A stretch of 64,000 nt of DNA, from NCBI GenBank assembly GCA_029237525.1, contig JARBAU010000230.1, positions 1-64,000 on the forward strand, read 5' to 3'. This document shows, in pieces, positions 1 through 23,462 of this stretch (positions within the stretch are counted from its first letter, which is position 1; each line of letters begins with the position of its first letter). The translations under genes were made by a program, and so were the position numbers. The notes under the pieces were generated by a model. That model saw nothing but the letters and a program-made list of their open reading frames with translations. It made no database searches and was not told the DNA's origin. This stretch comes from Nitrososphaerales archaeon. GTDB taxonomy: Archaea > Thermoproteota > Nitrososphaeria > Nitrososphaerales > Nitrososphaeraceae.

Positions 1-213
1 GAACCGAGAGATGGAATAGGTGGTCATTGCCTACCAAAAGATACTAAAATGTTCTTGCAATCATCCAAATCAATAAAAAGTAAGATATTGGCATCAGCAA
101 TAGAAGTGGATGAAGATTATAGAAGGTATAGGCAAACTAGAACTTTAGTTGTGAAAAGCGATTCACAACACTCTTTCGAAGAGAGTAATTCAGATCTTTA
201 CAAGTCAACTTAA
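1..213 (+). CDS. Nucleotide-sugar dehydrogenase, C-terminal end (5' truncated by window edge)
   Basis: Frame 1 is open from the first base to TAA at 211-213 (70 codons). Residues 6-13 read GGHCLPKD within five codons of the edge; this is the active-site motif of UDP-glucose/GDP-mannose dehydrogenases, whose cysteine forms the thiohemiacetal during oxidation of a sugar C6 hydroxyl to a uronate. In the usual enzyme about 150 further residues, including the UDP-binding domain, follow this motif; here only about 57 do, so the protein is either a short variant ending in the central dimerisation domain or has lost its third domain. It lies 57 bp upstream of a PIG-L deacetylase on the same strand, which suggests sugar metabolism. 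Substrate cannot be told. Confidence 0.75.
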   Translation, partial: EPRDGIGGHCLPKDTKMFLQSSKSIKSKILASAIEVDEDYRRYRQTRTLVVKSDSQHSFEESNSDLYKST

Positions 214-270
214 CCTCAAAATAAAAGTTGCTGACAGCGTTCAAATAATCATGGTTAGTAGAAAATCTTT

Positions 271-909
271 ATGAAAACAAAGGAATCGATAGTCGTATTC
301 GGTGCACATCCTGACGACATAGAGATAGGGATGGGTGGAACCGTAGCAAAGCTTGCTCAAAAAAATGATTATGACGTCCACTTGGTAATTGCTACGCTAC
401 CGAATTTCGTTAAAACAGATACTAAGGAGGGGCGTCAATCGGAAGCAATGTTGTCTGCAAAAGTAATGGGATGCAAGGATCCAGACCTTCTTGATTTATC
501 CCCAGAAGAAGTGATTTTCAATCGGAAATTCGTGGGAATCATAGACAAGATTATTAAGGAACGAAAACCGGAAGCAGTATTCACCCAGTGGATTGGTGAC
601 TCGCATCAAGATCATCAAGCACTTACCAGAGCAGTCATTGCAGCATGCAGAGATCTGAATAATATTTTCATGTATGAGACCACAATCCCGGGGGGTGTTA
701 CCGAGTGCGCCTTTAGACCGCAGCTTTATGTAGATATTGCAGGAACTATAGAAGTGAAAAAAGAGGCATTGAATTGTTTCGATTCGCAAAAGATTCGGTG
801 CGGTGAATATTGGATAGATGCAATCATAGGTAGATGTAAGTACAGAGGATATCAATTAAATACGAAGTATGCTGAAGCATTTGAAGTTGTCAGAGTATCA
901 AAGTGGTAA
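271..909 (+). CDS. PIG-L/LmbE-family deacetylase (BshB-like)
   Basis: A 212-residue protein of normal family length. Residues 12-16 are AHPDD with E18, and H112-x-x-H115 follows; together these give the zinc-binding and catalytic residues of N-acetylglucosaminyl deacetylases of the PIG-L/LmbE/BshB/MshB family. These enzymes remove acetyl groups from GlcNAc conjugates such as GlcNAc-malate (bacillithiol) or GlcNAc-inositol (mycothiol). Cytosolic, no signal peptide. It follows a nucleotide-sugar dehydrogenase end and is opposed tail to tail by the ATP-grasp/BshC-like pair, which makes a glycoconjugate substrate plausible. Family assignment is firm; the actual substrate is inference. Confidence 0.88.
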   Translation: MKTKESIVVFGAHPDDIEIGMGGTVAKLAQKNDYDVHLVIATLPNFVKTDTKEGRQSEAMLSAKVMGCKDPDLLDLSPEEVIFNRKFVGIIDKIIKERKPEAVFTQWIGDSHQDHQALTRAVIAACRDLNNIFMYETTIPGGVTECAFRPQLYVDIAGTIEVKKEALNCFDSQKIRCGEYWIDAIIGRCKYRGYQLNTKYAEAFEVVRVSKW

Positions 910-939
910 ATCGTATAAAATAATCTTACCAATTAAATG

Positions 940-2019
940 TTAGAAATAATCAGGGACAATTGAATTACTTTCTATTACTCTTCTTTGAGATGACGTATTT
1001 AAATAAGTCGAATAATCAACGTATACTTCGTTCCAGTATCTCATGCATAACAATTTTTTGTATTTTCTTGCGGTACTTTCTTGATTCATGAATAAATTCC
1101 TCAGGATTATATCTGGTTCATTGATCCCTGCTACTGCTCGCATTGGAGACGTTGCAGAAAATCTTGGATTTATCTCAAAAACCTTCACTTCATCTCCTAC
1201 TTGCATTGCTTGTACATTGACAGGTCCACGAGCCCCAATTTTTAAAGCAATTGCTTCAGCAGGCTGGCGTATATCACTGAAGTTATCAATTATCGCCTTA
1301 TAAGTCTGACCGTGCTTGATTGTCTTTTGAATAGAAATAGATGACAGTACTTTAGTACCTTGTTTGTCAATGGTTACACCAGTCGTGTACTCGGTGCCAT
1401 TTGTTCCAATATACTCCTGAAGTATAGGTTTCCATCCAGCTTCCTCAATTTTCGAAATGTTATACTGTAGCTCGTTTTCATCCTTTACTACTGCAAAATA
1501 TAGAGAACCATATCCTTCTCTCGGTTTTACCACAAGTGGAAAACCGTAGCGAGAAATGAAATTGCACTTGTCATCTGGTAGGCTTGATTCTGTTCTTGAA
1601 AAGTTATTACTTGCCAAGAATTCATAAGTCTTCCATTTGTCTCTAGCAAGTTCTAACACAGTTAAAGGATTAGAAATGATTTTTGCGTTAGTTTCAGCTT
1701 CTATTCTGCGTTGGTATTTGCCGAGAACCAACAGCTCTTCATCGGAGCCGATAAAAATTGCATTTATGTCATTTTTTTTAGATATTGAAATGATACTATC
1801 AATATAATCTGGCGACGATGAAGCTGGCACCAAAAACCCAATAGCGTTGCACCTATACAACCCTGCAGCTTGAGTATTGGCATCTGCAGCAAAAATTCTA
1901 TAAGAAATTGAATCTTCGTTTAAATAGAGATTTGCCCAATTCAAGCATTTCATAATTCCTTCCCCTATTATACCACCAGCTGCAGTGACAAGCACATTAA
2001 GCTGAATTCTTTTACTCAT
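940..2019 (-). CDS. ATP-grasp ligase, carbamoyl-phosphate-synthase-like fold
   Basis: About 359 residues from ATG 2019 (a TTG at 2037 would add six). The N-terminus has a Rossmann-like VTAAGG strand/loop; the middle contains KPREGYGS, the ATP-grasp lysine and glycine-rich loop; near residue 290 FEINPRF supplies the metal-binding Glu and Asn. The fold couples ATP hydrolysis to ligation of a carboxylate with an amine or thiol through an acyl-phosphate. TTATAA at about 2038-2043 on this strand suits a nearly leaderless start at 2019. It lies 43 bp downstream of the BshC-like gene, same strand, so co-transcription is likely. The substrate is unknown; a second ATP-grasp gene lies at 4746. Confidence 0.8.
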   Translation of the reverse strand: MSKRIQLNVLVTAAGGIIGEGIMKCLNWANLYLNEDSISYRIFAADANTQAAGLYRCNAIGFLVPASSSPDYIDSIISISKKNDINAIFIGSDEELLVLGKYQRRIEAETNAKIISNPLTVLELARDKWKTYEFLASNNFSRTESSLPDDKCNFISRYGFPLVVKPREGYGSLYFAVVKDENELQYNISKIEEAGWKPILQEYIGTNGTEYTTGVTIDKQGTKVLSSISIQKTIKHGQTYKAIIDNFSDIRQPAEAIALKIGARGPVNVQAMQVGDEVKVFEINPRFSATSPMRAVAGINEPDIILRNLFMNQESTARKYKKLLCMRYWNEVYVDYSTYLNTSSQRRVIESNSIVPDYF

Positions 2020-2062
2020 TATCCAATCGCATTTCAATTATAACATGATTTTGGTGATCTAG

Positions 2063-3736
2063 TTACATAGTCAAGGAGACCGGCGTAGCGAGATGATCGT
2101 TAGTTATAAGACCCGCCCTCCATTGGGCCTCGACACCATTCATGCCGAAGTTTACTGCATAGTCTATCATGCAAGGCTTCAAATTAATCGCCGATCTTGC
2201 TTTATTAACAGTCTTAATAGTGCGACGAATTGTTCTCTGAGATTCCTTTAATGGAAATACTTCACTTAAAATGTCATTTATAGATTGTCCAGATCTAATT
2301 CTCATTGTACGTTCACTAATCAACGGGACTATACGTTCAGCAAATCCAGAATCCATACCTTTCAATTTATCCAGATATGATTCTAGTTCTTTCTCATTAT
2401 TTACTCTTATATAGTGGAGTGCTTCTGACTGCCCAATACCCGTATAGACATCATCTGAGGGCCAAACAGTGGTTAAAGGCATGGTGACTTTGAGCTGCTT
2501 AAATGCGAGGCTGCTTACTAGCATGTAACCAAGGCTTCCACCTGTTCCGGAAGCATAGCATCGAATACCGAGTTCTCTGGCAAGAAGTAATAAAATTGGA
2601 ATTGCTCTAGGAGATATTGAATGTATCTTGTCACCTGACAAATCAATGTCATTCACCGAGCCAATTTCAATTCTAAGATCATTCTTGCACGCTATACATT
2701 TTCCTACTAGATATAGGTGTTGTGTCTTGGTTTCCACCAATTTGGCAGATCCCTTACTTCCACATTTACAATGCAGCCACACTGGGGCATTAAGATAAGA
2801 GCTCGAACTAACACCAGTGTTGATCCCTTGACTGGTAAATATAGCCTCACTTTCGTTCAAAGCTACGGCATATTTTTTATAATTAGATATCAGGAATTTG
2901 AACCCGTTTTCAAAAACTTCTGGTATGTCAGACAATCTAACGAATAGTGTATCATATCCCCAAATCCTATTCACAAGACGAGAGATTATAAATGAATTAA
3001 AATCCGCGTAGGATTTACATCTTGAATAGGATTCTAGAACTTCATCCCACAAATCATCGAAATTTTTTATTAGCTGAGATTTGTCTTCTCTCCTCAAAAA
3101 TAATGGTGAATTCGCGTTTCTGAGCCAATAATATACTTGGTTACGCCAAAAGTCTATCAAGGAACTTCTTGGAGTATCCATATTGTGCATCAATCGCCAC
3201 CTATCGTGAGCCCTAATGGGAAACCTGAGCTCAAGAATACCGTTTGCATTACGTACACTAGGCAGCTGGGCGTGCCTTATCCAAAACTCATCCATGAAAT
3301 CATGGTCGACAATTAGAAAGAGATTCACAAATTTTCTACTGTTATCTCTATGTTCAGCTATGGATTTTAGGCATTGCAATAGAATTATTTTCTTGTATAC
3401 ACCTGCGAAGGCAAAGAGATTAGGCTGATGGATTGAAACCAATATTTCGGTGGAAGGCTTTTGTAACGCCGAAAGGGATTCGTTGATTTTGGAGTTATTA
3501 GTGCCTGCTTGATGATGGAAATTGTCTATATATTTGACAATCCTTGCTCTATTTGACATAATAGTCCCAGCCATCGCCGAGGATTGGTTGGTTCGAGAAA
3601 AAAGTTTATCGATGGCTTCGGAGAGGCTTTCAGGAAAAGAAGAGATATAATCACCGATTACCTGATTTCCAACTGTTTCGAATTTCGAAAATAGAGATCT
3701 CACGCTGTGCCGTTGCCCTATTTCCGATGTAGCCAT
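2063..3736 (-). CDS. BshC-like protein (putative cysteine-adding enzyme relative) with zinc ribbon
   Basis: 557 residues from ATG 3736; upstream in-frame ATG 3754 and TTG 3766 are possible, but a TATAA element at about 3769-3776 favours 3736 as a leaderless start. Around residues 101-110 of this form is SIHQPNLFAF, resembling the GQQ-x-GLF segment of bacillithiol enzyme BshC, followed about 35 residues later by LIVDHDF, like the EDHDF motif of BshC; total length also matches (about 540). The match is recognised by eye and distant. Unlike BshC it carries a likely zinc ribbon, CKCG then CIAC about 22 residues later, and a GTGGSLG glycine loop in the C-terminal third. BshB-like and ATP-grasp genes adjoin. 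No other function suggests itself. Confidence 0.45.
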   Translation of the reverse strand: MATSEIGQRHSVRSLFSKFETVGNQVIGDYISSFPESLSEAIDKLFSRTNQSSAMAGTIMSNRARIVKYIDNFHHQAGTNNSKINESLSALQKPSTEILVSIHQPNLFAFAGVYKKIILLQCLKSIAEHRDNSRKFVNLFLIVDHDFMDEFWIRHAQLPSVRNANGILELRFPIRAHDRWRLMHNMDTPRSSLIDFWRNQVYYWLRNANSPLFLRREDKSQLIKNFDDLWDEVLESYSRCKSYADFNSFIISRLVNRIWGYDTLFVRLSDIPEVFENGFKFLISNYKKYAVALNESEAIFTSQGINTGVSSSSYLNAPVWLHCKCGSKGSAKLVETKTQHLYLVGKCIACKNDLRIEIGSVNDIDLSGDKIHSISPRAIPILLLLARELGIRCYASGTGGSLGYMLVSSLAFKQLKVTMPLTTVWPSDDVYTGIGQSEALHYIRVNNEKELESYLDKLKGMDSGFAERIVPLISERTMRIRSGQSINDILSEVFPLKESQRTIRRTIKTVNKARSAINLKPCMIDYAVNFGMNGVEAQWRAGLITNDHLATPVSLTM

Positions 3737-3767
3737 GTAATTGTTAACTAACATTAGAAATCCCAAC

Positions 3768-3777
3768 CATTATATAA
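3768..3777 (-). promoter_or_regulatory. TATA element of the BshC-like/ATP-grasp operon
   Basis: The segment reads ATTATATAAA and is nearly self-complementary. On the minus strand its centre is about 35 bases from ATG 3736, the spacing expected for an archaeal TATA box serving a transcript with a very short leader. Confidence 0.4.
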
Positions 3778-4004
3778 ATTTCCGTCCAAACGTCTGCAAT
3801 CGTCAACTATTTACTATACGACTCTGAAGGCCAACTAATTTAAGAAGTTTTAATCTATGTCATAGTAGAGAATAGTGTAAGATTATCACCTAAAGTCTTC
3901 ACAAAATAATATAACAGTAAAATGATTGAGAAGATTGTAAGATAAAAACTGATCGAAATTCTCTATACAGCTGATTTGTAATACTTAGAAGCGTTTTTGG
4001 ATTC

Positions 4005-4628
4005 TTACAGTGAGTTTGCAGCGACGATAAGGTCGTTAATATTCTCAAAAGATCCTACTGAGTTGAGACTATGGGCATCGCTTCCCAAGTGAAATCTTAC
4101 TCCCTTAGCTTTAAATGTAAGTATCCAGTCTAACGGCGGTCGACGGTACTTTGAATTTAGTTCAACCACTTTTCGATTTTGAACGATTTCCTCTGCGATC
4201 GAACGTATTTCAGATTCGCTGACCTTCATACCAGGTTCTGGAGCCAGGTGACCTATGACATCAACCGTCGGATCTCTAATAACTGATTTTAGAGCATTTA
4301 TCCAAACCTGTTTATTTCCAAAAACAGAATGAAAGCTCGCTATCACAAAATATTCGGTTCGATATTCGCTCGGACAATCAATATCACCATTTTGAAGAAT
4401 TTTTGCCTCGAATCCGGATAAAATATCTAAAGAGGAGGCAATAGCACACCTTTGTATTTCATCCAGGTATTTCGGAATCCAATCAGATGATTTCCTTACA
4501 TGTTCCGTAAATGCTATCTTCTTTAATCCTTTACTTTTTGCAATTTGAATTACATTGTTTATGGTTAGATCTGGATCAGAATGATCATTATATGTCGAAT
4601 GAATGTGATAATCAGCTAGTTTGTCCAT
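4005..4628 (-). CDS. PHP-domain phosphoesterase-like protein
   Basis: 207 residues from ATG 4628 (a TTG at 4652 would add eight). The protein begins almost at once with DYHIHS, the HxH metal motif of PHP enzymes such as histidinol phosphatase and the PolX/PolIII PHP domain. Further metal ligands are visible: TEH at about residue 38, the His of FHSVFG, the His of IGHL, and GSDAH near the C-terminus. The set is complete, so it is probably an active trinuclear metal phosphoesterase. It sits between the BshC-like gene and a divergent ATP-grasp gene. HisK/HisJ histidinol phosphatase is one option, but no other histidine genes are near; a phosphatase in the neighbouring pathway is equally possible. 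Confidence 0.8.
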   Translation of the reverse strand: MDKLADYHIHSTYNDHSDPDLTINNVIQIAKSKGLKKIAFTEHVRKSSDWIPKYLDEIQRCAIASSLDILSGFEAKILQNGDIDCPSEYRTEYFVIASFHSVFGNKQVWINALKSVIRDPTVDVIGHLAPEPGMKVSESEIRSIAEEIVQNRKVVELNSKYRRPPLDWILTFKAKGVRFHLGSDAHSLNSVGSFENINDLIVAANSL

Positions 4629-4713
4629 AGTATTAACTGCTGCCTTTTGCACTGGTTTGGTTGATAGCTAATGATTAAACTAACCTACTATATATATAAA
4701 TATTTATTACTTC

Positions 4714-4724
4714 GATAAATATAC
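4714..4724 (+). promoter_or_regulatory. TATA element for the divergent ATP-grasp gene
   Basis: GATAAATATAC ends 22 bases before TTG 4746, placing its centre near -27 if translation starts at or next to the transcript end. A longer TATATATATAAA run at 4689-4700 lies further upstream and may serve either direction. Confidence 0.4.
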
Positions 4725-4745
4725 TATACCTCTTGGTAATGTCCG

Positions 4746-5747
4746 TTGGCTAGACCTGAAATATCTGTAGTTCTTGTTCCAGGCGCAGCCGCACCATCGG
4801 GCATAAATGCAATCAAGTCTTTGAGAATGGGCGGATATAAAGGTAAGATTGTTGCTACAGATTCAAGTTATCTTTCAGCTGGGTTTTTCATGTCTGACTT
4901 TAACGAGGTAATCCCTGAAGCTGATAATCAATCATTTCTGCAGAGATTGTTGGAAATAATTAAATCGCATAAGGTTCAAGTTCTTCTGCCTACTTCAGGT
5001 TATGATATATACCCTTACAGTGAGCATCGAAAATTACTGCAGGACATGGGAGTACATGCAATAGTCAGCGATAGAAAGAGCCTTGAAATTTGTCGTGACA
5101 AGATGCAGACCTATCACTTTCTGCGGAATAATTATTCCTTGCCTTTTACTACGGAAAATGCTAACAATATCAACCAGTTCCCAATCATCGCCAAGCCAAG
5201 ATTCGGAAAAGGTAGTCGTGGTATTATTAGGATCGATGACGAATCTGAGCTTAAATATGTTTCATCAAAAATGGATGATTTTATTTATCAGGAGTTCCTT
5301 CCCGGAACAGAGTACACGATTGATGTCCTATCTGATCTGAATGAGAAATCTATGATTGCCGTGCCGCGGATTAGAATTCAGACAAAGGCTGGGATCTCCA
5401 CAAAAGGTAAAATTGTACGAGACTCTAAGCTCGAAGATCAGTGTATGGATATTGCTAATCGTATACGGATAAGAGGACCATGTTGTATTCAGATGAAGGA
5501 ATCTGATGACGGCAGTCTGAAGCTTGTTGAGGTAAATCCAAGGATGGGAGGAGGTACAATTTTCGCAACCCTAGCTGGAGTAAACTTCCCATCACTTTTG
5601 TTAGATCTTGTCGAAAATAAGAAAATTGTTCTACCCAAGATAGATGAAGTTACGATTGTAAGATATTTCGAGGAAATCGTGATTAGAAATGAGGTACATC
5701 GGAATATTGAATCTGATATTATACCCAAACAGAATTATCTGGCATAA
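4746..5747 (+). CDS. ATP-grasp ligase, CarB/PylC-like
   Basis: 333 residues with TTG start; no in-frame ATG precedes it and a TATA element at 4714-4724 supports leaderless initiation. The N-terminal domain is Rossmann-like with VLVPGAAAPSG; IIAKPRFGKGSRG is the ATP-grasp lysine plus glycine loop at about residues 146-158; YQEFLPGTEYT is the conserved hinge strand; LVEVNPRMGGG gives the metal-binding Glu and Asn. The architecture resembles CarB-like ligases including PylC. Divergent from the PHP gene with a 117-bp shared promoter region. With the paralogous ATP-grasp at 940-2019 it suggests successive amide or ester-bond formation in one pathway. Substrate unknown. Confidence 0.85.
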   Translation: MARPEISVVLVPGAAAPSGINAIKSLRMGGYKGKIVATDSSYLSAGFFMSDFNEVIPEADNQSFLQRLLEIIKSHKVQVLLPTSGYDIYPYSEHRKLLQDMGVHAIVSDRKSLEICRDKMQTYHFLRNNYSLPFTTENANNINQFPIIAKPRFGKGSRGIIRIDDESELKYVSSKMDDFIYQEFLPGTEYTIDVLSDLNEKSMIAVPRIRIQTKAGISTKGKIVRDSKLEDQCMDIANRIRIRGPCCIQMKESDDGSLKLVEVNPRMGGGTIFATLAGVNFPSLLLDLVENKKIVLPKIDEVTIVRYFEEIVIRNEVHRNIESDIIPKQNYLA

Positions 5748-6851
5748 CTTCGATCCATTTCACTATTCTAAAATTATCCTCTAGCAGGATCTAATTAACT
5801 CACTAAACTGTTACTCCCTCACTTGCAGTATGATGATTAGTGAGAAATAGTTCAAGAACCTGTGGACCCAACTTCAACCTGAGTTAATCATTTGATTGAA
5901 TGTCATATATGCTCCCTGTTTCTGGTTTTAGTAATGATTGGACAGCTCCGAACACACTTATTCATATTTCACATGCCTGCTGGTAGCTGTAATCTGTTTT
6001 CTAATATGGTGAGAAGCCACCATAGTGACATTGTTAACAACTGGATAAATCTTGCCATGTGTAAATTTAGCTGGCTTTAATTGGCAGAACCTGCGATAGG
6101 TATGAAACGCAATCTGGCCCAAAGTAAGGATTATTCGAGCTTGTTTTAGAATCTGTAGTTTCTTTAGAAGGTGGCCAGACCATTTTTCTATTTTCTATTG
6201 ATAAAGGCAAATTATTTAGAGTGGGCATTTTACCACGGAGATGATTTGAGCCTTTAGAACTTGTCAATCATGTCTCTAATCACTAGTTTGAATGTTCGCC
6301 TTGTTTTCTTATTTATTGGCTGACAGAGCCACCGCCAATAAAAATATGTCTACCTATATCTACACCATAAGCAGCTGGGGTCATATCAATTATTAAAAAC
6401 TTGGCTCTAAGGTCGCAGCAGCTGGGGATATATCTTAATTCATATCTTTCATTTGCGGATCGCTTATTTTTTGATCTGTCTATATTGGCAATGTAATATG
6501 GTAAACGTGGAAACAGTATGCAATAAATAAACCCTCTTGTCAAATCTGAAAAAATAGGATTCACTTGAAAGAATAATATGAAAAAGCTAAGACGAAAACC
6601 CATTCAGTAGTGTTACTGGCACCAGATTCATTAAAAAATCTCGCTCCAGTAAATCAATGCGATCAAGATGATGGTCACACTTAGAAATCAATGTTTAAGG
6701 CCCATGTATGATTGAACAACTTTTCGTCAATAGTAACTACATGACAAAACAAGTGACTCGATATAACTAGGTATCATAAATGATTTCTGATTGAAATCAT
6801 TAAACTTATAATTATTGAAGACTATGTATATGAGGTAAATGGAATAACCTT
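5748..6851. other. 1.1-kb stretch without a convincing gene
   Basis: Only short open frames with poor protein character occur here (for example 5892-6080 plus, 6313-6603 minus). No tRNA, transposase remnant or repeat was recognised. The 3' end holds the promoter region of the DUF92 gene, including the inverted repeat at 6779-6801. Confidence 0.5.
6779..6801. promoter_or_regulatory. 9+9 bp perfect inverted repeat before DUF92 gene
   Basis: Arm AATGATTTC at 6779-6787, 5-nt spacer, exact inverted arm at 6793-6801. It lies 50 bp before GTG 6852, just upstream of where the core promoter should be, so an operator for a dimeric regulator is the natural reading. The regulator is not known. Confidence 0.45.
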
Positions 6852-13847: not shown

Positions 13848-14981
13848 TTAATCAAATGGAATTGGGAGCTTTGGCATTAGCGCATTTTGATCGAACCCTT
13901 TCTTAACCTCGTCAATAATTTTACTGGACAAATCATCCACTCTGTTACTAATGTTGTCTACGGTATTTTGAGGAGAAGCTGCCTTGAATGTTGCACTTAT
14001 CGTTCTATCCTTGTAACCTACTGCCGAAATCTTTGAGTAGATGTTGTATGTAGATTCGGATTTTCCTTCATCTGTCATTTTCCATGATTTTGATATTTTT
14101 CCATCGGGACCGGTAAAGCCCACAAACTGCCTTTCTAGAATTGATGAAGATGTTGGTTGAACATCTGTTGTTACCTTTGCTCCGGCTATCTTAGCATTAG
14201 TTGTGCCATCGGAAACAATAACCTTGATTGTTTGCTTTTGACCAGGCGCAATCGGATCCTTGCCAACGTCTAAGAATGCAACTAGTGTACGTGTAGTATT
14301 CGCGCTAGAATTTGTTTTAGATACGATGTTGGTAGGCTGAATGGGTTTATAAATCGAAGCAGTTAATTGCACTGGACTTGTTTTGCTCGAGTTCGCATGC
14401 AAAAGGCCAGTATTGGATTGATTCTGAACATTGCGAACAGGTATCACCGTGGTCGAATGACTAGGCTCGACTAATTTGTCCGGCTTCCCTGTAATATTAA
14501 TACTATACCATTTGGATATTCCATTAGGCTGGCTTGGTGTATTGCAGGTCAGCTTCGATGTTATTTTATTTAGCCCTGCCTTAATTGAACTATATTTGCT
14601 ACTGATAGTATACTTCCATGATGAATAATCTTCCCCACTGGGAGTGCTTTTTCCAGTAGGTGTGGTTTTTTGGTAGGGTTTCATGTCATTTAATAATAAC
14701 AATACTTGGCAATCAGTAGCGGGATTATCCGAGGATATGCCAGAAACAGTGAGGATGCCACTGGTCGGGACTTGCTGACCACGCGGTGGTGAAACTATTT
14801 TTATCATCGGTACGTGCGATTGCGGTGACTTTGATAAGGATGCACTTGAGTTCTGCATATGAGGGCCTGTCAATGTCCCACTTGAAGAAATGGCCACAGC
14901 TGTATCAACCTGATGACTAATCGAGAGCATTCCAGCAAATATTATCACAATAATAATGATTGTGAGATATGATGTAACCAA
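13848..14981 (-). CDS. Secreted/surface protein with Ig-like domains
   Basis: 377 residues, TTG start. An N-terminal hydrophobic helix (about residues 5-22) is a signal peptide or anchor. Residues about 55-160 form an Ig-like beta domain (IKIVSPPRGQQVPTSGILTVSG), with two cysteines likely in a disulfide. A Ser/Thr/Asn-rich linker follows, then a second beta domain at about 230-335 (GQKQTIKVIVSDG, ISATFKA) of the kind that adds carboxypeptidase-like or Big repeats to cell-surface proteins. The linker has many N-x-S/T sites consistent with glycosylation. Common style in Nitrososphaeria surface proteomes; precise role unknown. Confidence 0.7.
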   Translation of the reverse strand: MVTSYLTIIIIVIIFAGMLSISHQVDTAVAISSSGTLTGPHMQNSSASLSKSPQSHVPMIKIVSPPRGQQVPTSGILTVSGISSDNPATDCQVLLLLNDMKPYQKTTPTGKSTPSGEDYSSWKYTISSKYSSIKAGLNKITSKLTCNTPSQPNGISKWYSINITGKPDKLVEPSHSTTVIPVRNVQNQSNTGLLHANSSKTSPVQLTASIYKPIQPTNIVSKTNSSANTTRTLVAFLDVGKDPIAPGQKQTIKVIVSDGTTNAKIAGAKVTTDVQPTSSSILERQFVGFTGPDGKISKSWKMTDEGKSESTYNIYSKISAVGYKDRTISATFKAASPQNTVDNISNRVDDLSSKIIDEVKKGFDQNALMPKLPIPFD

Positions 14982-15374
14982 GATGTCCTAGTCTATTACT
15001 CAGAACCATTATATTTAGAATCCAAAGCCAAGTTATATTCACAAAAGATAGAAGTTTCATCCAGATTTCCATAGCATATCTTATACTAGTAGAAACCTAC
15101 TTTCTTGAAGAAATAATAATAGCATATTTCATTACAAACTAGTTTATTCTATCTTAATTTTGATGCAAGTCTTGTAGAGCTGCTGTAGTGAAATCTATGC
15201 CTGGAAGAGGGTCTTGTCGCCTTTGCATCATGATTTAGGTTGCAGTCTTTACAAACATTTACCATATCAATTAACAGAGCATTCGGCCCTTGCTAATCTA
15301 ACTAGATAACATTTTTATTCAGTTCTCCTAGTAGACATGCCATTGTTGATTCTCTAAATGATATTGCATCAGAC
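14982..15374. other. Divergent promoter region
   Basis: Separates the surface-protein gene (minus) from uracil-DNA glycosylase (plus). A small AGTAG-AAAC-CTACT repeat lies at 15088-15101. The segment 15306-15374 stays in frame with the glycosylase gene and may be coding from a non-standard start. Confidence 0.4.
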
Positions 15375-15893
15375 GTGAGAATGTGTCGTACTTGTTCATT
15401 ATTTAATACTAGAACTAATGCTGTGCCTGGTGACGGTTCATCAGTTCTGAAAGCAATGCTCGTAGGCGAAGCTCCTGGAAGGAGTGAGGATCAACTTGGA
15501 ACACCGTTCGTAGGAAAGGCTGGAAAAATTTTAGACAATATCTTACGAACGACTGGAATCAATCGATCCCAACTTTATATTACTAATATCGTCAAATGTA
15601 GGCCCCCACACAACAGAAAGCCAAAATCAATCGAGGTAATGGCCTGCAGAATGTATTTGAACAGGGAGATTGCGGTTCTTAAACCGAGGATAATTGGCTT
15701 GATGGGTAGGACGGCATACTCGACTTTAATCGGCGGAAATGGATTTAGTTCGAGCCGTGGTCAAATTTTAGAAATAAATGGACAGTCCTATTTTATTACA
15801 TTTCACCCTGCAGCTGCGATATACAACAAAACTATAAAGGAGTCATTGAGAATTGACTTTACTAAATTGGCATTTGAACTTGGACTGAAATAA
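15375..15893 (+). CDS. Uracil-DNA glycosylase, family 4 (Fe-S)
   Basis: 172 residues from GTG. Removes uracil from DNA to begin base-excision repair. GEAPG (31-35) is the family active-site loop, and four cysteines (Cys4, Cys7, Cys75, Cys91) match the 4Fe-4S ligands of family 4 enzymes; HPAA near the C-terminus is the second catalytic loop. Family members usually have about ten more residues before the first cysteine, and here the frame upstream encodes a fitting SLNDIASDV segment but without ATG, GTG or TTG; an ATT at 15342 or ATA at 15306 may be the true start. Monocistronic. Confidence 0.9.
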   Translation: MRMCRTCSLFNTRTNAVPGDGSSVLKAMLVGEAPGRSEDQLGTPFVGKAGKILDNILRTTGINRSQLYITNIVKCRPPHNRKPKSIEVMACRMYLNREIAVLKPRIIGLMGRTAYSTLIGGNGFSSSRGQILEINGQSYFITFHPAAAIYNKTIKESLRIDFTKLAFELGLK

Positions 15894-16149
15894 AATAAAA
15901 TACAAACTTCCTTTTTGTTCGGCTCTTGGGAGAGGGTGTTGATGGACTTTTGCTGTACATTACTCCACTAGTTCCAATCTTCCTACTTTAAAGTATTAGT
16001 GCTAGGAGCCATAATTAACTGATTTCTCCGCGTGGCCATTTCAAACGAAAACGAATCACAGTGGACCGTCGACTGTAATATGTGTTCTAATCGACTCAGA
16101 ATAGTTGGAAAGTTTTTAACGAGGATGGAATTCTTAGAATCAGTATACT

Positions 16150-16374
16150 ATGTCGTCTAATCCTGAACTTGGACTTGCTAGTATGTATAGAGTAATCAAA
16201 AAATCTGGTGCCGAAAGAGTAAGCGATGAGGCTGCCGATGAACTCAGGAAGATTCTAGAGGAAATAGCACAGCGAATAGCGACTCAAGCGCTTGATCTTT
16301 CAGTTCATGCTGGGCGCAAAACCATAAAATCTGATGACATTAGACTAGCAGCTAAGAATATCTTGAAACTATAG
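16150..16374 (+). CDS. Archaeal histone
   Basis: 74 residues, ATG start, a complete single histone fold: helix 1 (SMYRVIKKSGAERVS), long helix 2 (about 27-54) and helix 3 ending AAKNILKL. The RKTIKSDDIRLAAK segment is the hallmark of archaeal histones, and the length is close to the usual 66-70 with a short N-terminal extension. It forms dimers that wrap DNA. Its stop is followed by a 140-bp AT-rich spacer before the TatD gene. Confidence 0.95.
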   Translation: MSSNPELGLASMYRVIKKSGAERVSDEAADELRKILEEIAQRIATQALDLSVHAGRKTIKSDDIRLAAKNILKL

Positions 16375-16515
16375 TGACAAAAGATTCTAGGCCGAATTTC
16401 GATGTATCGACATTGACAGAATATTTTTTCTTTTATATAGTTTAACTTATTTTATCAAGTAGATTTTTTAAAATATCGATTTTTTCGAACACTATAAGTT
16501 AATTAAAAAGTTGTT

Positions 16516-21836: not shown

Positions 21837-23462
21837 TCAAAGATATGACTGGACTAAGTTACATGTCCTTTCTATGCCGAGATCAAGTACGTAGTTGCCG
21901 ATTCTAGGTCCTTTATCTGCACCTACCAAGATCCTATATAGTAGGGTGAAGAATTCTTTGATTCCTATTCCATTTCTTCTGGAAATATCAAAGATCATTG
22001 ATTGTAGATTTCTAGGAGACTCGTCAAACGCTTCCTTTCCTTTGAAATCTTCTAAGCCTTGGATTAATTCCATTAATGCATTTCTGTCCCTATTAGTTAG
22101 GCCCAATTCGGAGTTGCCATCATTCTTTAGCCCGTGGTCATCAGCCCAGTTTGCGGCTAATCTGATTTTGTTTGTTAGGACTGCCTCCTTCTCGGCAATG
22201 ATGCCGTACTTTGCCAGCCTTCCATAAACTTTCTCTACTCTTTGGTCGTCATCAGAGAAGAGCAATCCTTGCTGTACCAATAGTCTATATGGAACATGTT
22301 TTGTGGGATTGGAAGGAGGTTTTAAGTGATTTATGTATTCATAAACACCTTTCAGCTTAGCAAGTTTTGTCCGATTTTCTTCCGAAATTATTCCAAAATA
22401 TAGATCCTCGTAATAATCATACTCATCCATCAAGGAGGGTATATCGTCTAAGGAAACGTGTCTTGTTCCTGTCACTCGCTTATATAACAACAACAAAAGT
22501 GATTCAGGTGTTCCATAACTTAACCACATTTGAGGTGTTAAGACATTGCCCTTTGATTTGCTAATTTTCTGTCCAATCTTATCAAGAAACATTTCATATC
22601 TAAGATGTAACGGATGGGAGTAGCCTAATACGTCATTGGATACCCAGTCATTTATTCTCACCGAGTCCATAATGTCCTTTCCATAAGCTTCAAACTTGAT
22701 ATCGAATGCTTGCCATCTAGCGGCGAATTCTACTTTCCAAGCTAGCTTGCCATTTCCATTATTAATGTTTGATTCACCATAATATCCGCATCCCTTCACT
22801 ATTTGATTTCCAATTCTAGTGTCTGAGCACGAATATGAGACTTTCTTTTCCTCAGAAAGGTATCTCTCCGCTTTTGCAACATACAGTCGACCACAATTTC
22901 GACAAATTGGGAAATACGGGAGCGTCTGATTATATTTGTCCTGACCTATCATGGCTTGAATTCCTATCCCAAGACGATCACTATTCCGTAGAATAGTATC
23001 AATTTGTGCTGACAACATATTTTTCTTGTATGCTTCGGTTCCACTTTGAAATTTGTAACGAACTCCAACTCTATCGAGCCCTTCTAGAAGCAAACTGCTC
23101 ATATGAGCGCCATATGATGTATGACAATCACCAAATGGGTCTGAAATCTCTGAAACCGGCTTAGCGATCTCATTTTTCAAATACTCAGGTAATCCATACG
23201 GTATCTTCCGGAGGCCGTCCATATCATCTGAATAGGTAACAAGCTCACTTTTGTAACCCAGGTTCTGCAGTGCAAGAGTAACACCATAAGCCCTAACCGC
23301 ATCTCCCATACTACCTATATGAGGAATACCGGAAGCTCCCAAACCACTTTCAACCCGTATGAGATCAGTATTTCTACCTAATTTCTGTTCCCTTGATACA
23401 AGATCATGGGCGATCTTGTCGATCCAAGTACCTTTACCGAGGATCTCCCCATCGAATTTCAT
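21837..23462 (-). CDS. lysS: Lysyl-tRNA synthetase, class I
   Basis: 541 residues, ATG start. The class I signatures are both present: GIPHIGS (45-51, HIGH variant) and KISKSKG near residue 297. CRNCGRLYVAK about residue 187 is the zinc-ribbon insertion characteristic of the archaeal class I LysRS, and the C-terminal half is the alpha-helical anticodon-binding cage. It charges tRNA-Lys with lysine. The ATG overlaps the elp3 stop by four bases, so translation is coupled to a wobble-modification enzyme whose substrates in other organisms include tRNA-Lys. Confidence 0.95.
   Translation of the reverse strand: MKFDGEILGKGTWIDKIAHDLVSREQKLGRNTDLIRVESGLGASGIPHIGSMGDAVRAYGVTLALQNLGYKSELVTYSDDMDGLRKIPYGLPEYLKNEIAKPVSEISDPFGDCHTSYGAHMSSLLLEGLDRVGVRYKFQSGTEAYKKNMLSAQIDTILRNSDRLGIGIQAMIGQDKYNQTLPYFPICRNCGRLYVAKAERYLSEEKKVSYSCSDTRIGNQIVKGCGYYGESNINNGNGKLAWKVEFAARWQAFDIKFEAYGKDIMDSVRINDWVSNDVLGYSHPLHLRYEMFLDKIGQKISKSKGNVLTPQMWLSYGTPESLLLLLYKRVTGTRHVSLDDIPSLMDEYDYYEDLYFGIISEENRTKLAKLKGVYEYINHLKPPSNPTKHVPYRLLVQQGLLFSDDDQRVEKVYGRLAKYGIIAEKEAVLTNKIRLAANWADDHGLKNDGNSELGLTNRDRNALMELIQGLEDFKGKEAFDESPRNLQSMIFDISRRNGIGIKEFFTLLYRILVGADKGPRIGNYVLDLGIERTCNLVQSYL

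Follow-up and report, generated by a model that had tools for sequence, protein, structure and literature searches.

What product could be made by an archaeal gene cluster that brings together an amino-sugar deacetylase of the PIG-L family and a protein resembling BshC, an enzyme of bacillithiol synthesis? The question is raised by the window analysed here, namely, the first 64,000 bases of contig C301 (JARBAU010000230.1) from the 3.7 Mb genome (400 contigs, 93.7% complete) of a Nitrososphaerales archaeon, at the start of which these two genes are found together with those for two ATP-grasp ligases, a PHP-family metallohydrolase and a nucleotide-sugar dehydrogenase. All the genes that the initial annotation of this cluster had named are present where it had placed them. 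However, the dehydrogenase is represented only by a C-terminal remnant, cut by the contig edge so that base 1 of C301 falls inside the gene, and the start of the BshC-like gene, given as 3736, is ambiguous (3766, 3754 or 3736), with residues 1-18 disordered in the structural model described below. The features are as follows.

1-213, plus strand: nucleotide-sugar-dehydrogenase-like gene, C-terminal remnant of 70 residues; central domain with the catalytic GGHCLPKD
271-909, plus strand: PIG-L/BshB-type amino-sugar N-deacetylase (Pfam 70.5 bits, cut-off 28.2; GAHPDD and HQDH motifs)
940-2037, minus strand: ATP-grasp ligase 1, PRK12767/NF009402 family, PylC-like N domain (NF009402 300.7, cut-off 218)
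2063-3766, minus strand: archaeal BshC-like protein, 567 amino acids (PF10079 24.1 bits, E 2.9e-5, cut-off 27)
3413-3430, minus strand: HQPNLF motif of the BshC-like protein, residues 113-118, aligned with the GQQAGL loop of BshC
3296-3307, minus strand: DHDF motif of the BshC-like protein, residues 154-157, aligned with (E)DHD of BshC
2687-2770, minus strand: zinc-ribbon insert CxCG...CxxC of the BshC-like protein (C333, C335, C357, C360), invariant in archaeal members
4005-4652, minus strand: PHP-family metallohydrolase, from profile scans; a looser partner
4746-5747, plus strand: ATP-grasp ligase 2 (ATPgrasp_Ter/PRK12767), from profile scans; goes with PHP, not with the BshC-like gene

A distant archaeal homologue of BshC

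To judge from profile comparison and a predicted structure, the product of 2063-3766 is almost certainly a homologue of BshC. An AlphaFold model built from an alignment of 37 family members (mean predicted local distance difference test score, pLDDT, 90.9) displays the elements of the BshC fold, that is, a Rossmann core with connecting-peptide inserts and a coiled coil, and its best Foldseek match in the whole PDB is the Bacillus subtilis BshC, 4WBD (E 3.1e-16, template modeling (TM) score 0.61/0.63, 14% identity). The only other match below E 0.01 is class I lysyl-tRNA synthetase (LysRS; E 7.6e-8). In hhalign comparisons with three true BshCs annotated in plasmid records, the same family alignment scored 95.7% (E 1e-8, 344 columns) and a broader archaeal alignment 96.9% (E 2e-10), whereas a contrast run of the latter against 16 class I LysRS sequences reached only E 0.035. 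The profile alignment pairs HQPNLF with GQQAGL and DHDF with EDHD. Thus, the relation to BshC suggested in the initial annotation is upheld, and the proposed check with PF10079 and profile-profile comparison yields a sub-threshold hit with the former and significant matches with the latter. The full relation was revealed only by the fold and profile-profile comparisons: a single-sequence phmmer search of the PDB gave no matches, the family profile gave only noise against the same database, the PF10079 match spans 126 residues, and the stricter NCBIfam BshC model scores 13.7 bits (cut-off 265.8). Because it falls under both the Pfam and the NCBIfam cut-offs, the protein is filed here as a homologue of BshC but not, by curated criteria, as BshC itself.

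We considered whether HQPN could be the HIGH motif of class I synthetases and rejected this because HQPN aligns in the loop after strand 1, whereas the LysRS HIGH motif aligns further on, near a helix start, and because the LysRS profile match is not significant. The window also carries a gene for a class I LysRS (22329-23429), the second-best fold relative of the BshC-like protein.

Among 15 diverse sequences from several phyla, H113-Q114-P115-N116, F118, K126, D154 and the four cysteines are all invariant, with HQPNFF replacing HQPNLF in two. The cysteines follow the pattern W-x-x-C-x-C-x-x-K ... C-x-x-C, which is of the zinc-ribbon type and is absent in the three true BshCs compared. By these sequence characters, the BshC-like proteins form a separate archaeal clade marked by HQPN, the four cysteines and adjacency to PIG-L. 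A scan of 84,980 species with an alignment query yielded archaeal matches only, from Nitrososphaeraceae, Bathyarchaeota, Methanomethylicus, records labelled Euryarchaeota, Hadesarchaea, Methanomicrobia, Thermoplasmata and Aenigmatarchaeota; the protein from Nitrososphaeraceae archaeon CRAIB_MAG63 is 76% identical to that of the window. The alignment query was essential in this respect, as a scan of the genome collection with the single protein found no matches; a plasmid search with the archaeal protein also found none. Canonical BshC was sought elsewhere in the phylum and discarded, with none of 389 Thermoproteota genomes exceeding the NCBIfam cut-off and the sub-threshold hits, at model positions 360-520, resembling chance coiled-coil matches. 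A BLAST survey of 2025 found no archaea with bacillithiol enzymes (PMC12719100), and a review of 2020 noted few InterPro hits for them in archaea, mostly in Asgard archaea (PMC7278568). The present analysis defines a distant BshC clade that is present in several archaeal phyla and nearly always accompanied by PIG-L. An apparently decayed copy, with a match of only 99 residues, was observed on contig C135 of genome G210.

Gene neighbours and co-occurrence

In the window, the PHP, BshC-like and ATP-grasp 1 genes run in the same direction, separated by 238 and 25 bases; PIG-L and ATP-grasp 1 are convergent, 30 bases apart, and PHP and ATP-grasp 2 are divergent, 93 bases apart. The genome contains one PIG-L gene and one BshC-like gene, and the two are neighbours; since, in addition, the order dehydrogenase - PIG-L - ATP-grasp 1 - BshC-like - PHP - ATP-grasp 2 is kept in most of the Nitrososphaeraceae genera examined, the clustering is far beyond chance. 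The genomes surveyed are a sample, many of them fragmented, gene calls outside the window were made here from open reading frames, and neighbour proteins that were not scanned were named by reading their sequences.

Across archaea, the observed pair consists of PIG-L and the BshC-like gene, which lie side by side in nearly all lineages where the latter was detected, among them Nitrososphaeraceae, Bathyarchaeota, Methanomethylicus, Hadesarchaea, Thermoplasmata and Aenigmatarchaeota. In nearly all loci with flanking sequence, from several phyla, they are less than 3 kb apart: in other phyla, the distance is 0-135 bases in eight loci (L099, L102, L105, L106, L108, L110, L123 and L124) and about 2.4 kb in L044 and L045. 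The initial annotation had called for a survey for a linked glycosyltransferase. Glycosyltransferases are present in the clusters L099, L106, L108, L123 and L124, and a "type-B" arrangement in genera g5 and g3 has another PIG-L 29-68 bases from the BshC-like gene, followed by a glycosyltransferase of family 4 (GT4), a GalE-like epimerase and, further on, ATP-grasp 1. This GT4 exceeds the PelF cut-off (156.8 vs 100) and scores 95 bits with MshA and 89 bits with BshA. The L108 cluster also includes a polysaccharide flippase and a FemAB-type gene, DegT aminotransferases are found in L044, L045 and L102, a GlmU-resembling gene in L105 and a GlmS-resembling one in L044 and L045 (both judged by eye), and a uridine diphosphate (UDP)-sulfoquinovose synthase (591 bits, cut-off 575) adjoins the BshC-like gene in L059 and lies within the BshC-like cluster in L036. 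Within the window itself, no glycosyltransferase gene was recognised adjoining the cluster.

Several further observations pertain to these loci. In the single-contig genome G109 (L035, L036), the BshC-like and ATP-grasp 1 genes each occur twice, in differing contexts, and one of the clusters has UDP-sulfoquinovose synthase. The type-B cluster of L035 encodes, at 14863-16515, a conserved protein of about 550 amino acids with no Pfam or NCBIfam match, and a conserved protein of about 300 amino acids is found near PIG-L and the BshC-like gene in Bathyarchaeota-type genomes (L123, 12839-13738; L099, 18153-19073), the L123 copy having no Pfam match.

Within Nitrososphaeraceae, the tight pair is a different one, namely, the BshC-like gene and ATP-grasp 1. 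In a set of 62 genomes, ATP-grasp 1 is present in 32 of the 37 with a BshC-like gene and in none of the 25 without it (Fisher p 1e-12, shared ancestry ignored), in agreement with the earlier suggestion that an ATP-grasp gene accompanies the BshC-like gene. The five exceptions comprise four genomes with partial contigs, low completeness or a BshC-like fragment (G328, G339, G364, G210) and one with another arrangement (G285). Gains or losses of the two genes agree within genera g2, g5 and g6: the BshC-like gene is found in only one of ten g6 genomes (G263), which alone has ATP-grasp 1, and in six of 17 g5 genomes, five of them with ATP-grasp 1. The other genes are looser partners. Co-occurrence with the BshC-like gene gives p 0.005 for PHP and p 0.12 for PIG-L subfamily A, and both remain in genomes that lack it; the dehydrogenase and PIG-L form a separate pair in genus g6, and so do PHP and ATP-grasp 2, often beside a glycosyltransferase of family 2 (GT2), which in Nitrosocosmicus-type genomes is PgaC-like and comes after this pair. 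The notion of five genes acting as one fixed pathway is therefore abandoned, and the conserved co-occurrence predicted for the cluster holds for PIG-L and ATP-grasp 1 with the BshC-like gene; PHP with ATP-grasp 2, and the dehydrogenase with PIG-L, persist as separate modules without it. Neither a missing structural relation to BshC nor a scattering of homologues, the two outcomes named in advance as refuting, was encountered to an extent that would overturn the core claim.

The 1.1 kb that follow ATP-grasp 2 in the window (5748-6851) hold no convincing gene, and no remnant of the PgaC-like GT2 was detected there. In L066 (genome G333), PHP and ATP-grasp 2 contain stops or frame breaks and are apparently decayed copies.

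The inositol-lipid link and the possible product

PIG-L, or the dehydrogenase/PIG-L pair, adjoins a cytidine diphosphate (CDP)-alcohol phosphotransferase for which the best-scoring model, in each of four proteins, is archaetidylinositol-phosphate synthase (NF040950). The two genes lie within 1.5 kb of each other in 13 genomes from five genera, with at least two PIG-L subfamilies involved:

Genus g4 (G082, G285, G338, G729, G730): PIG-L 121-126 bases from the synthase
Genera g2 (G070, G093, G100), g8 (G190), g3 (G072) and g5 (G256, G336, G368): PIG-L at most 1.5 kb from the synthase

In the window's genome, a single CDP-alcohol phosphotransferase was detected, on contig C90; this contig opens with some 43 residues from the N-terminus of the dehydrogenase (79% identity with a relative), and the synthase comes next (L164, C90:1-990). 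Because the ends of C90 and C301 hold an N-terminal and a C-terminal part of the same dehydrogenase gene, we infer the order synthase - dehydrogenase - PIG-L - rest of the cluster, broken inside the dehydrogenase. The dehydrogenases of relatives have a serine/asparagine-rich stretch at the break point; in seven other genomes (G183, G195, G202, G245, G276, G329, G343), the inositol-phosphate synthase starts less than 400 bases from the contig start, a hint that these assemblies all break in the low-complexity linker. In three full-length relatives of the dehydrogenase, PF03721 and PF00984 were found but the UDP-binding C-terminal domain was not, so the substrate may not necessarily be a UDP-sugar.

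The action of PIG-L on N-acetylglucosamine (GlcNAc) linked to inositol is established chemistry in the synthesis of glycosylphosphatidylinositol (GPI) and mycothiol, and a glucosaminyl-archaetidylinositol lipid has been described for Methanosarcina. The cluster would be an amide-exchange module on an amino sugar. The analysis establishes homology to the named families, the BshC fold and conserved linkage of the genes, from which the following chemistry is inferred. PIG-L would strip the acetyl group from GlcNAc on an inositol phospholipid or a related surface glycan, exposing the amine; the BshC-like protein would couple the freed amine with a carboxyl compound that is probably an amino acid, on the model of BshC, whose presumed reaction couples cysteine with glucosaminyl-malate; and ATP-grasp 1 would use ATP to form a further carboxylate-amine bond on this product, perhaps with a carboxylate made by the truncated sugar dehydrogenase, with PHP and ATP-grasp 2 as accessories. 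The product would likely be either a glycolipid head group of (amino)acylated glucosaminyl-inositol or a glycoconjugate of the envelope. This scheme seems to us the best explanation overall, and it is about evenly poised between being right and wrong. Its parts differ in strength: deacetylation followed by re-acylation of the amine is probable, an inositol lipid or surface glycan as the carrier is a finely balanced proposition, and cysteine as the added group is doubtful. The inositol-lipid or surface-glycan reading is adopted because PIG-L adjoins archaetidylinositol-phosphate synthase in five genera and glycosyltransferases surround the pair elsewhere. Among archaeal phospholipids, archaetidylinositol is relatively common (PMC9385802), and the Nitrosocosmicus clade lacks an S-layer, an amino-sugar glycocalyx having been proposed instead (PMC11559005), which fits an envelope role without proving it.

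Several observations weigh against this scheme. The synthase scores just under the NCBIfam cut-off (155-179.5 bits vs 180); its link to PIG-L was not seen in genus g6 or next to the BshC-like gene in other phyla, so that it rests on PIG-L neighbours within one archaeal family; and ATP-grasp 1 was not seen beside the BshC-like gene outside Nitrososphaeraceae and is not universal to the module. Furthermore, since the in vitro activity of BshC was undemonstrated as of a 2015 review (PMC4360819), the chemistry of BshC is a weak guide and the template reaction is partly assumed.

Three other explanations deserve consideration. The decoration of a repeat sugar of a surface polysaccharide or N-glycan, on a nucleotide- or polyprenol-linked sugar and with no inositol lipid, such that PIG-L, the BshC-like protein and the ATP-grasps install amide-linked substituents, is possible but clearly less likely than not. 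It would suit the glycosyltransferases, flippase-like proteins, sugar aminotransferases, FemAB-type gene and UDP-sulfoquinovose synthase nearby in various lineages, the PgaC-like GT2 and the glycocalyx proposed for Nitrosocosmicus, yet it leaves the position of PIG-L next to the synthase in five genera unexplained and sits uneasily with dehydrogenases that have no UDP-binding domain and with a window in which the cluster has no recognised glycosyltransferase beside it. A soluble low-molecular-weight thiol, as raised at the outset, we regard as rather improbable. Here, the BshC-like protein would add cysteine to a glucosaminyl conjugate (glucosaminyl-inositol as in mycothiol, or another aglycone) and the ATP-grasp would extend it, making an archaeal counterpart of bacillithiol and mycothiol. 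Enzymes of the BshB and BshC types do occur together, the type-B cluster is completed by a GT4 of the MshA/BshA superfamily, the inositol gene next to PIG-L would suit glucosaminyl-inositol, and archaeal thiols are largely unsettled (PMC7278568). However, the best BshA match in the window's genome is 28.9 bits (cut-off 273.7), the nearest match of the GT4 is the polysaccharide enzyme PelF, glycosyltransferases and flippases surround the pair outside Nitrososphaeraceae, the inositol gene serves to make a lipid, and the BshC-like gene is dispensable because the single-contig genomes G132 and G136 (genus g5) lack it, G132 having no match to the PIG-L of the window either. The thiol reading is thus weakened, while the expectation of a conjugate related to but different from bacillithiol stands. 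Finally, the BshC-like protein could be a relic protein resembling class I aminoacyl-tRNA synthetases, with a non-biosynthetic or regulatory role and incidental neighbours; LysRS is its second fold match and both have a zinc ribbon, but the far better fit to BshC by fold and profile, the strict conservation of the catalytic-loop motifs and the pairing with PIG-L across phyla make this very improbable.

Comparison with known systems

Because no BshA reaches the cut-off, the cluster is not bacillithiol synthesis. The BshC-like protein shares with BshC (PF10079/TIGR03998; 4WBD) the fold over nearly the whole length, the glutamine/leucine loop, the DHD motif and the pairing with PIG-L/BshB. It differs in its identity of about 14%, below both family cut-offs, in having HQPNLF instead of GQQAGL, in the four-cysteine zinc ribbon, in the company it keeps, a genome with no BshA over the cut-off, and in being archaeal only in the collections searched. 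As a new system, the archaeal clade could be brought to bear on the chemistry of BshC. The PIG-L of the window has the complete AHPDD and HxxH zinc site of the BshB1/PIG-L/MshB enzymes (PF02585), and its best equivalog is BshB1, although it scores below the cut-off of that model (TIGR04001, 97.7 bits vs 182.5), and the neighbour of this type of PIG-L is archaetidylinositol-phosphate synthase, not bshA. Both ATP-grasps are closest to the PRK12767-type ligases, from which ATP-grasp 1 is set apart by its tie to the BshC-like gene; in soil ammonia oxidisers, it may be an obligate partner of that gene.

The mycothiol and GPI routes, in which a GT4 is followed by PIG-L/MshB acting on GlcNAc-inositol, resemble the type-B cluster in their GT4 and PIG-L classes and the archaeal PIG-L in its neighbouring inositol-lipid gene, but the BshC-like protein stands where mycothiol synthesis has MshC, a homologue of cysteinyl-tRNA synthetase, and the archaeal GT4 is nearest to PelF. 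Conceivably, though we hold it to be unlikely in this complete form, archaea possess a route of their own in which PIG-L and a zinc-ribbon homologue of BshC make an aminoacyl-glucosaminyl-inositol lipid, possibly a cysteinyl one, from GlcNAc-archaetidylinositol. The cluster provides a genetic basis, open to testing, on which Nitrosocosmicus-type archaea may build amino-sugar envelope or head groups. Such a lipid route, if true, would link the chemistries of GPI anchors, mycothiol and bacillithiol; in soil ammonia oxidisers, an ATP-grasp ligase would take part in it too.

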